NCBI RefSeq assembly: GCF_000317045.1 | Contig: NC_019703.1 | Span: 4,162,934 to 4,226,933 of the forward strand | Source of the DNA: Geitlerinema sp. PCC 7407 | Lineage (GTDB): Bacteria; Cyanobacteriota; Cyanobacteriia; PCC-7407 | DNA length: 64,000 nucleotides | Direction: 5' to 3' | In this document: positions 60,328-64,000 of the stretch, one piece after another | Position numbering within the stretch: position 1 is the first letter of the stretch | Layout of the letters: every line of letters begins with the position of its first letter | Program-made: the position numbers and the translations under genes | Notes under the pieces: model-generated | What the model was told of the DNA's origin: nothing | The model's database searches: none | Seen by the model: the letters and a program-made list of their open reading frames with translations, nothing else

Positions 60328-60999
60328 CTATTGCAGCCCCAGTCGGGACTGGTGCAGCCAGCACCCCGCCCCCTCTACCAAGAACCAGGCGTCGCCTTTT
60401 TCGTCCACGGTGCGATCGGTGATTTCGACAAACGATCCACCACCAAAGGCCGTCACCACCTCGCCCCAGGGCCGACGACGACAGTTGCTGCCCTCACTCG
60501 CGGGACCAATCGTCTTGGCCATGCGCGGAAACACGTCAGCGTCATCAGCCAGATTGTCGTCCTCGTGATAAATGTTGTCCATGTCCGGCTCCGGCGTCTC
60601 TGCAACCGGGCCATCTTCGCCGTAGATGTTGTCCATATCCGGCTCTGGTGACTGGGGCGCGGAGTCGTCTTCACCGTAAATATTGTCCATGTCTGGCTCT
60701 GGCGTCTCAGCCACCGGACCATCTTCGCCGTAGATATTGTCCTGATCTGCCTCGGGGGTGGGCGACGGAGTTCTGTCTGTTGTCCGGTCGGCCGCTGGCC
60801 GCTGGGGCCGCGCGTCGCTCACTGACGGCGTCTTGGAGGCCTGGGGCGCTGCGGGCGCTTGAGCAACCGTTGTGGGTGACTCAGCGCGCGATCGCGCCAT
60901 ATCGGCATCTGCCCGCGACAGCAGCCCAATGCTGATTCCACCGATCGCCCCTGCTAGGATGGCCACACCAAGGAGCGATCGCACGATTTGTTGATTCAT
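60328..60999 (-). CDS. Secreted/anchored protein with four 18-residue acidic repeats and a C-terminal SH3-like region
   Basis: A 223-residue protein with a membrane anchor or signal peptide (VRSLLGVAILAGAIGGISIG). After a Pro/Ala/Ser-rich linker come four exact-length 18-residue repeats at 81-98, 99-116, 117-134 and 135-152, consensus TPEPDMDNIYGEDGPVAE. Each repeat carries D-N-I-Y-G/H-E-D. The C-terminal region (about 165-223) contains RPWGEVVTAFGGGSFVEITD and GDAWFLVEGAGCWLHQSRLG, resembling a small SH3b-like beta domain. The repeats are strongly acidic and could bind divalent cations or a partner. The family is unknown. Confidence 0.8.
   Translation of the reverse strand: MNQQIVRSLLGVAILAGAIGGISIGLLSRADADMARSRAESPTTVAQAPAAPQASKTPSVSDARPQRPAADRTTDRTPSPTPEADQDNIYGEDGPVAETPEPDMDNIYGEDDSAPQSPEPDMDNIYGEDGPVAETPEPDMDNIYHEDDNLADDADVFPRMAKTIGPASEGSNCRRRPWGEVVTAFGGGSFVEITDRTVDEKGDAWFLVEGAGCWLHQSRLGLQ
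60544..60759 (-). repeat. Four 54-bp coding repeats
   Basis: Four tandem 54-base units in frame within the preceding gene encode the 18-residue acidic motif. Units 1-3 keep IYGED; unit 4 has IYHED. Divergence is greatest at the outer units, as is usual for slippage arrays. Confidence 0.9.
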
Positions 61000-61479
61000 G
61001 GGGACCTCAGGGTTGGTACAAGGTTATTTCTGGACCTAGGAAATAACCACAGTCCTTCCTGCTGCGATCGCGGAAAATATAGCCCCAGCCAATTCAAAAA
61101 CTGTCACGTTCCTCATCATTTCAATCCTAACAAAAGCCCGTTTCAATCTATTTTTCAGTGCTTTAATCAAAATTTCTCACTTAAGCAATTCCACAGGAGC
61201 CGCGTTAATAAATTTCTCTTAAAATCATCGTTTGAAAAACTCAGGATTTCTGGAAAAAACATGCATTGTTAGTAACACCTGAGATAAACAAATCAGTTTT
61301 AGCGTGGCTCTAGTCTTTAAGAATCTGCGGTATCTTAGATAGCCCTGCATCTAGCAGCTTCAAGCAAATTTTCCGGTGTGACCAAAAATTTTCTGACCGC
61401 ATCCAGTGATACCCAAATTCCGGCTTTCAGACACCTCGGCTCTGCCTCTTTCGCAGCATCACCTCTAGACCCAAAACGC

Positions 61480-61513
61480 AAAAGCCCCGAAACCGTGCGG
61501 TTTCGGGGCTTTT
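61480..61513 (-). terminator. Strong hairpin terminator downstream of the tRNA-Thr fragment
   Basis: A 15- to 16-bp perfect stem AAAAGCCCCGAAACCG / CGGTTTCGGGGCTTTT with a minimal loop. On the minus strand it lies 7 bases after the 3' end of the tRNA-Thr remnant, as expected for the tRNA's original terminator. Confidence 0.85.
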
Positions 61514-61520
61514 GACTGAA

Positions 61521-61568
61521 AGCTGGTGACAAGACTCGAACTTGCGACCGGCTGATTACAAATCAGCC
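61521..61568 (-). tRNA. Partial tRNA-Thr (UGU anticodon), 3' half only; probable attachment-site remnant
   Basis: Read on the minus strand: an anticodon stem GCTGA / TCAGC around a loop TTTGTAA with anticodon TGT (Thr); a short variable region; a T-arm GCAAG, TTCGAGT, CTTGT; and the acceptor 3' strand CACCAGC plus discriminator T. The 5' half (acceptor 5' strand GCTGGTG, D-arm) is missing; sequence further upstream on this strand does not resemble it. The fragment cannot make a working tRNA. Such 3' halves are left when a tyrosine-integrase element inserts into a tRNA gene, which points to an element on the right, carrying hsdR. Confidence 0.75.
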
Positions 61569-62041
61569 TAAATTCCTTGTCATGTCTAGGTTTCAGGCTT
61601 TTTTCCAAAAATCGATACCCATTTGATACCCAAAATGGGCTGCTTCATCAAAACTTCACACTTGGATCCCGGTTCATCGTCCGAGTTCACTGCTGAGGGA
61701 GTCCGCGATCGCCCTTTTCTGACTTAAGCATCTAGACCCAGCTCATCCCAAAAACAGGGTAGGGTTGACGACCAAGCTTAGCGTCCTGCCAGGGCCGATA
61801 TCATCGCTTCCAGGGTCTAGACAGCTGCTGTATGCAAGGGGGCAGTCTCCCTCCTTCCAGTTGATTGGCTTGCGCGATCGCCTCTCGGCAGACGTCTCAG
61901 GCCACGAAGAATCCTAATACTGCATGAAGTTGACATAACCTACCGGGTTTCTTTTCGCCCTGTGGGTACACTGTGATGAGATATTTTTTGCGTTCTTGAA
62001 AATTAATTTGCCACAGTTTCAAAGGTTGGTGAAAGCTCACA

Positions 62042-64000
62042 ATGGCTAATGAAGCAAATACTTGTCGTCACTATGTCGTGCCAAAGCTGGAAAAGGCAGG
62101 CTGGGACGGACTAGAACATACCTACACTGAGCAGTACTATTTCACCGCTGGAAAGCTGAAGCCAAAGAGTCGACACCAATTACGGGGTCACAAGAAGTTT
62201 GCGGATTACGTGTTGCTTTACGCAGGTAGTTTTCCCTTAGCCATTGTGGAAGCAAAGCAGAAACGGAAAGATCCGAATGACGGGCTTGACCAAGCTAAGG
62301 ACTATGCACAAATTTTAGGTGTAAAGTTCGCCTATTCGACCAATGGTCAGGGGATTGTAGAGCACGACTTTACAACAGGTCTTCAGTCAGACGTGATGGA
62401 TTCATTTCCAAGTCCTGACGAGCTATGGCAAAGGTTGAGAAAAAGCCAGGGCTTGAATGATGAACTTATCGCAGAATGTCTTTCAAAACCTTTTGATGCA
62501 ATCGCAGATAAACTACTAGCTCCGTTCAATCCCAACAATGGCAAGGAACCTCGTTACTATCAGAGAATTGCGATCAACAGAGCAGTAGAAGTGATTTTGA
62601 GGGGACGACAGCGTCTGTTGATCACAATGGCTACAGGAACAGGAAAAACAAGTGTTGCTTTTCAAATCTGCTGGAAATTGTCTCGTATTGGATGGAATGC
62701 AACGGGAGAGCACCGATCGCCTCGTATCCTATTTTTAGCCGATCGAAATGTACTAGTCGATGATCCAAGGAATAAGGATTTTGCGGCTTTTGGTGAAGAC
62801 AAAATTCGAAAGATTCAAGGTAGTGCCACAAAAGGAAGAGAGCTATATTTTGCTACTTATCAGGCGATCGCCCAAGACACAATGCGCCCTGGTTTGTATC
62901 GCGAATATAGTCCCAACTATTTTGATCTGATTATTGTGGATGAGTGTCATCGGGGCAGCGCCAGGGATGAAAGTAACTGGCGAGCAATTCTGAATTATTT
63001 TCAACCTGCCTATCAGCTGGGTTTGACAGCAACACCCAAACGGGAAGACAACGTAGACACCTATGCTTACTTTGGCAATCCCATCTACACCTACAGCTTG
63101 AAGCAAGGGATCGAGGATGGATTTCTTGCCCCCTATCGGGTGTATCGCATTTCTACTCGATCGGATAGGGATGGATGGCAAGCTGCTGAAGGAGAACTGG
63201 ATCGCTATGGCCGCACTATTCCAACAGAGCTATATCAAACACCAGACTTCGAGCGGAAACTGGTCAGAAAGTCGAGAACTTGGGCGATCGCCCAACACAT
63301 TACAGATTTTTTGAAGCGCACTAATCGCAACGCCAAAACCATCGTTTTCTGTGTAGATGAAGAGCATGTCAAAGAGATGGTAAAAGCACTCAATAATCTG
63401 AATGCTGATATCACCAAAGACAACCCAGACTACATCAGCCGCATCACCTCAGATGCCAAAGAACTGGGTAAAGCCAAGCTCTATGACTTCAAGGACGTAC
63501 AGAATACAAGCCACGTGATCGCGGTAACGTCCAAGCTATTAACAACAGGTGTTGATGTGCCCCTATGTCAGAACGTGGTTTTGGCAAGGGTGATACGTTC
63601 CATGACAGATTTCAAGCAAATCATCGGACGTGGCACCCGCGTCAAGGAAGAAAAGGGCAAAACTTACTTTAATATTCTGGATTACACCAACAGTACGGTC
63701 CTATTTGACGATAAAGAGTTTGATGGAGAACCGGACCTGATCCAAGAGTCTGAGATTGATGATAAGGGGCAAACAATTCCGAGTAGTGAGCACACCCAAG
63801 ATTTTGAGCAGGATGAGGAAGATCCCAACTATGGCTGGCATGGCCTACCCTCCGAAGAAGACGACGAACTACCGCGTAAGTTCTATGTAGATGGAGACAC
63901 CGAAGAAATTGTTGATGAACGGCGCTACGACCTGACCGAGGATCAGCAACTTCAGCTATCCCGACTAGTGGACTTTACACGGGAGGAGGTCAGAACGCTA
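62042..64000 (+). CDS. hsdR: Type I restriction enzyme R subunit (runs off right edge)
   Basis: An open frame of 653 codons from ATG 62042 to the end. It is the motor-nuclease subunit of a type I restriction-modification complex, which cuts foreign DNA after translocation. The N-terminal nuclease has GHKKFADYVLLYAGSFPLAI (Asp) followed by VEAKQKRKD (E-x-K). Helicase motifs: RLLITMATGTGKTSVAFQIC (I), ILFLADRNVLVDDP (Ia), LIIVDECHRGSARDESNW (II, DECH), YQLGLTATPKRED (III), KTIVFCVDEEH (IV), VTSKLLTTGVDVPLC (V) and FKQIIGRGTRVKEEKGKTYF (VI). It is of the EcoEI-like R group. hsdM and hsdS are expected just to the right or to be absent; none lies on the left. Two HIP1 octamers occur in it. Confidence 0.94.
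   Translation, partial: MANEANTCRHYVVPKLEKAGWDGLEHTYTEQYYFTAGKLKPKSRHQLRGHKKFADYVLLYAGSFPLAIVEAKQKRKDPNDGLDQAKDYAQILGVKFAYSTNGQGIVEHDFTTGLQSDVMDSFPSPDELWQRLRKSQGLNDELIAECLSKPFDAIADKLLAPFNPNNGKEPRYYQRIAINRAVEVILRGRQRLLITMATGTGKTSVAFQICWKLSRIGWNATGEHRSPRILFLADRNVLVDDPRNKDFAAFGEDKIRKIQGSATKGRELYFATYQAIAQDTMRPGLYREYSPNYFDLIIVDECHRGSARDESNWRAILNYFQPAYQLGLTATPKREDNVDTYAYFGNPIYTYSLKQGIEDGFLAPYRVYRISTRSDRDGWQAAEGELDRYGRTIPTELYQTPDFERKLVRKSRTWAIAQHITDFLKRTNRNAKTIVFCVDEEHVKEMVKALNNLNADITKDNPDYISRITSDAKELGKAKLYDFKDVQNTSHVIAVTSKLLTTGVDVPLCQNVVLARVIRSMTDFKQIIGRGTRVKEEKGKTYFNILDYTNSTVLFDDKEFDGEPDLIQESEIDDKGQTIPSSEHTQDFEQDEEDPNYGWHGLPSEEDDELPRKFYVDGDTEEIVDERRYDLTEDQQLQLSRLVDFTREEVRTL

Follow-up and report, generated by a model that had tools for sequence, protein, structure and literature searches.

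The 3' half of a tRNA-Thr(UGU) gene at 61521-61567 of the window (the whole 64,000-nt stretch analysed, G000:C1:4162934-4226933 of a 4.68-Mb contig) is, with a probability that we put at about 93%, the left end of a 14.7-kb integrated mobile element, i.e., a genomic island, residing in tRNA-Thr(UGU). The first-pass annotation had described this half with its terminator but without the 5' half, and had predicted an island reaching rightward beyond the window with the complete tRNA at its far end. Both claims held: the half comprises nt 27-73 and adjoins a perfect-stem terminator, and extension to the right revealed, 14.7 kb away, a complete tRNA-Thr(UGU) whose 3' half and terminator are near-identical to the left copy and which has an intact tyrosine integrase gene as its neighbour. 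The two copies are thus not an intact gene and a stray fragment with nothing in between, since the element separates them.

Attachment repeat and island content

The features are listed below. Positions without a prefix are those of the window; an L006 coordinate is the window position minus 60000.

61474..61567, minus strand: left copy of a 94-nt att repeat (3' half plus terminator), 97% identical to the right copy
61479..61514, minus strand: intrinsic terminator, displaced along with the tRNA half (perfect 16-bp stem, -29.5 kcal/mol, z -6.9)
61521..61567, minus strand: tRNA-Thr(UGU) 3' half, nt 27-73, 47 nt, the left attachment junction (from the sequence)
61556..61562, minus strand: anticodon loop TTTGTAA in a symmetrical anticodon stem, the putative strand-exchange region (from the comparison of half and full tRNAs)
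61568..64000: left part of the island, the remainder (L006:4001-16199) lying beyond the window
61614..61621, minus strand: TGGGTATC, predicted arm-type site 1, far arm
61625..61632, minus strand: TGGGTATC, predicted arm-type site 2, far arm, 11 bp from site 1
62042..64000 and on to L006:4435 (L006:2042-4435), plus strand: hsdR, type I restriction subunit, 797 aa (Pfam ResIII, EcoEI_R_C, and HSDR_N)
L006:4460-6271, plus strand: hsdM, 603 aa
L006:6268-7458, plus strand: hsdS, 396 aa
L006:7471-8643, plus strand: Fic protein
L006:8827-9273, minus strand: PIN_10, paired with DUF433
L006:9270-9971, minus strand: DUF433/HTH, paired with PIN_10
L006:10155-11174, minus strand: orf339, 339-aa protein
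L006:11198-13969, minus strand: primase-like protein, 923 aa (PHROGs primase matches)
L006:13930-14292, minus strand: 120-aa HTH protein, excisionase candidate
L006:14897-16075, minus strand: tyrosine integrase, 392 aa, intact (PF12167 and PF00589)
L006:16099-16128: three copies of TGGGTATC, integrase side, between the complete tRNA and the integrase
L006:16200-16293 (C1:4239133-4239226): right copy of the 94-nt att repeat, 14,726 bp rightward on the same chromosome
L006:16247-16319, minus strand: complete tRNA-Thr(tgt) at the right end of the island (ARAGORN)

Over nt 27-73 the left half is 100% identical to the complete gene. A search of the genome itself with the tRNA-half/terminator stretch returned a single other copy (E about 1e-38), and chance is therefore excluded as the source of the 94-nt repeat. 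The right-hand terminator copy, at -21.1 kcal/mol, is weaker than the displaced left one. ARAGORN and Rfam scans of the window gave zero tRNA calls, as expected because only half a tRNA is there, and the plasmid collection searched with the att region contained no match.

The start of hsdR, which had been put about 470 bases from the half, lies 475 bp from it. The hsdR, hsdM, and hsdS genes of the type I restriction-modification set are all present and intact, with their domains found by Pfam and PADLOC (REase_I match of hsdR in PADLOC, E 3e-207). Judging from these genes, the island carries all of a type I restriction system as cargo, accompanied by Fic and toxin-antitoxin-like genes, while no relaxase or conjugation gene was recognised among the ten main ORFs of the island. 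The GC content of the island is 50.8%, compared with 57.9% in the window to its left. The orf339 product, which had no Pfam or PHROGs match, is 55% identical to a protein (L128:6495-7601) of an otherwise different element of the same integrase family. Between the excisionase candidate and the integrase, L006:14602-14901 holds diverged direct repeats (a 92-nt pair, a 52-nt pair, and 19-nt CTGAAAGATC units) and a 27-nt inverted repeat; this stretch is possibly a regulatory or origin region. Outside the island, 54-nt spaced repeats occur at 60556-60756 of the window within a 223-aa ORF (60328-60999), with a protein unit of about DNIYGEDGPVAETPEPDM.

Integrase and predicted arm-type sites

The integrase gene starts 172 bp downstream of the end of the complete tRNA-Thr. 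Its product has an arm DNA-binding domain (PF12167, E 8e-8) and a catalytic domain (PF00589), and R241, K279, Y345-Q/N-T-R348-H349, and Y380 are invariant in 15 integrase sequences, with N371 at the place where H or W is usual. A sequence search against the PDB gave no match. In the AlphaFold model, an N-terminal b-b-b-a unit (a three-strand sheet plus a helix) is followed by core-binding and catalytic parts, and the best fold matches are the Tn1549 integrase and lambda Int. Judging from the catalytic residues, the N-terminal arm domain, and the pattern of repeat sites on both sides of the core, the protein is probably a lambda-like heterobivalent tyrosine recombinase. A second integrase in the same genome (G000:C1:209655-210494; L145:1501-2340) is 32% identical to it, with a tRNA-Phe(gaa) about 165 bp past its end on the other strand.

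Other elements of the integrase family also encode relatives of the 120-aa HTH protein, several of them directly adjoining the integrase. The model of this protein is a winged helix-turn-helix (wHTH), and RdfS, the ICEMlSymR7A excisionase, takes the first two places among its PDB matches; these top-ranked matches have weak E values (0.044-0.053) with a probability of 0.99-1.0, and Pukovnik Xis follows lower down. The model makes the wHTH protein a likely excision factor, which is a lead and not proof.

The direct repeats at 61614-61632 had been suspected of being recombinase-associated, and this suspicion gained support: GATACCCA, which reads TGGGTATC on the tRNA strand and is spaced by 11 bp, also stands beside the integrase at the other end of the island and behaves like an arm site. 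Within the 4.68-Mb genome, tandem TGGGTATC occurs only at the ends of the element (two copies on the left and three on the right, all five in one orientation), and the reversed control pattern had no match. In 29 of 30 integrase loci, the gap between tRNA and integrase holds a 9-mer repeated exactly or nearly so (eight or more of nine letters) at a spacing of about one helical turn (10-12 bp, nearly all 11 or 12), a result that shuffled gaps seldom attain. The letters of the arm motif vary among elements, yet they match between both ends of each element: none of 20,000 permutations reached the end-to-end agreement observed for 14 pairs. Because some of these 14 pairs are related to one another and several are split between contigs, the comparison of seven motif-class representatives is fairer, and here the true pairing alone among 5040 reaches the agreement. 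The 14-pair test did not include the halves of G360 and G053, which have no arm motif matching the side of the complete tRNA. On this motif evidence, it is very probable that the GATACCCA repeats are the arm-type binding sites of the integrase.

Integration might then proceed as follows. In the circular form, attP would have as its core a copy of the tRNA 3' half that starts at the anticodon stem and brings a terminator of its own, flanked by arms with two TGGGTATC on one side and three TGGGTATC ahead of the integrase gene. With its N-terminal domain on the five arm sites, the integrase would use its catalytic domain for strand exchange in the anticodon stem-loop, thus joining the circular attP to the host tRNA. 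The 3' half and terminator of the element would be swapped in, and a working, terminated tRNA gene would therefore be rebuilt at the integrase end, while the old 3' half and terminator of the host would be pushed to the far hsdR end as the fragment reported here. The wHTH protein would act in excision, and the element presumably passes between cells.

Related elements and alternative explanations

The integrase relatives and the tRNA gave cyanobacterial matches, and an integrase match (E <= 1e-30) was found in 173 of 390 class-level genomes. Where a tRNA was found upstream, integrases with 51-75% identity without exception start some 160-210 bp beyond a tRNA-Thr(UGU) gene that reads in the same direction, and their genomes also hold a tRNA-Thr 3' half; more distant integrases are associated with Thr, Phe, Met, or Arg tRNAs. 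The truncated copy is consequently not an ordinary conserved feature, as had been considered in the first-pass annotation, since copies elsewhere are paired with related integrases. Half and full genes lie on the same contig and strand in G134 (18.3 kb apart), G235 (28.2 kb), G298 (30.2 kb), G333 (30.4 kb), G012 (66 kb), and G268 (67 kb). Because the pairs of G308, G280, G015, G141, G045, and G264 are on different contigs, their pairing is inferred, and the G148 pair (621 kb apart, on opposite strands) is tentative. Locus L116 (G308:C223) has a tRNA-Thr half with TGGGTATC arms, then TGGGTGTA arms and a second integrase, i.e., stacked elements.

The tRNA half at the left end of the island begins at the anticodon stem, as do the halves of 15 other genomes. 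Over the 16 pairs, mismatches between half and full tRNAs are frequent in nt 1-25, identity sets in at nt 26-31, and the two agree throughout from nt 29-32; this pattern locates the exchange to the anticodon stem-loop, although its exact bases are approximate. The order of the tRNA and the right-flank sulfate-binding gene is kept in five genomes, which showed no integrase relative within the ~20 kb examined. An exact empty site was not seen among these relatives, which are related at class level only, and the left-flank genes were not found near the tRNA in the five genomes.

Three elements picked for completeness or linkage, not for cargo, contain defence-like genes by PADLOC or Pfam: DpdE-, DruE-, and DrmM-like genes in G333, PbeA and PbeC in G235, and GmrSD- and HNH-type genes in G134. 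A fourth, in G141, gave one weak match. This cargo sample of three is too small for a claim of enrichment.

Several other explanations were weighed against integration of the present island. That the half is a plain pseudo-tRNA from a local duplication, without a tie to integration, accords with its being truncated and nothing more, but is contradicted by an integrase, arm repeats, and a complete tRNA in exact register that recur in many genomes, and can practically be dismissed. It is a more serious, though still minority, possibility that what the half adjoins is not original chromosome but the remnant of an older family member, largely lost by deletion, onto which the present island was stacked. 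A lone TGGGTATC (61408..61415, minus strand) lies outside the island, some 104 nt beyond the 3' end of the half, where at the intact end the integrase-side arm begins at ~117 nt; the 97% repeat runs through the terminator, the flank at 61000-61473 has 42% GC, and G308 offers a case of genuine stacking, in which a second arm tandem and integrase come after a half. As a trace of a related element that once occupied this tRNA, however, the lone motif is suggestive only: it is a single copy, no integrase remnant was detectable beside it, and there is no third half in the genome. The alignment of the left flank past the repeat did not rise above shuffles (291 of 1000), and a decayed-element end is therefore kept as a rival only.

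Two further proposals concern the nature of the element and of its repeats. A degraded prophage or phage satellite spreading in phage particles would explain the integrase, the excisionase-like wHTH protein, and the primase (with its PHROGs matches) in an order like that of satellite modules, yet no terminase, capsid, tail, or packaging-interference gene was recognised in the island, nor in those ORFs of the 18-kb G134 element that were sampled, and we consider it unlikely. Quite improbable is the view that the GATACCCA repeats are regulatory operators, e.g., of the integrase promoter, and not arm sites; three copies do lie 30-50 bp ahead of the integrase start, but the other two are 14.5 kb off at the opposite end, adjoining the other att half, and the pairing of the motif at two ends recurs in other elements. 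Because the attP-bound integrase of ICEMlSymR7A also represses int (PMC11963761), arm-site and operator roles can coexist.

Known systems and significance

With tRNA-integrated genomic islands in general, the present island shares a complete tRNA by the integrase, a repeat of the 3' half at the far end, defence cargo, and a lower GC content. Here the attP copy takes in the tRNA terminator, and nothing goes beyond the known kind. The attP of ICEMlSymR7A has 283 bp and five arm sites with the consensus TGKTGGTATC, all five of which are needed (PMC11963761). The island resembles this IntS/RdfS system in its five arm sites (here TGGGTATC, predicted), its attP length (about 265 bp), and its wHTH factor with RdfS as the best fold match, but it is without recognised conjugation genes, and its sites are in the same orientation, two far from and three near the integrase.

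Lambda Int is likewise heterobivalent with five arm sites split over two arms, and the integrase-side tandem of three is reminiscent of P'1-P'3 of lambda. The core of the island is instead the tRNA anticodon stem-loop, and structure alignments with lambda Int show 14-16% identity. Five arm sites also make up the lambda attP (PMC4880445). The tycheposons of Prochlorococcus and Methylophilaceae are alike in their tyrosine recombinase and tRNA-borne cargo islands; the present island is in another host lineage and another tRNA, and we do not assign it to them.

We found no description of cyanobacterial tRNA-Thr islands in the open-access literature. A tentative and rather doubtful extension of our reading is that they form an undescribed cyanobacterial family of defence islands sharing tRNA-Thr(UGU), with subfamily-specific arm codes (TGGGTATC, TGGGTGTAA, TTGGGGTAC, TGGGGGTAA, TTGATCTAA, and others), each integrase reading its own element only; elements stacked at one tRNA would therefore stay independent despite their common core.

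Defence islands integrated in tRNA genes are ordinary and well known; what stands out in this one is its att anatomy, which is unusually clear and complete. A tRNA fragment spotted by eye led correctly to an island that ends beyond the window, and the predicted integrase binding sites of its family can be read straight from the sequence. Because these sites differ by integrase subgroup, the family is a natural data set for the DNA code of the PF12167 arm domain. Since the sampled islands carry varied restriction and antiviral-like genes, tRNA-Thr(UGU) is a place to seek mobile defence genes in filamentous cyanobacteria.
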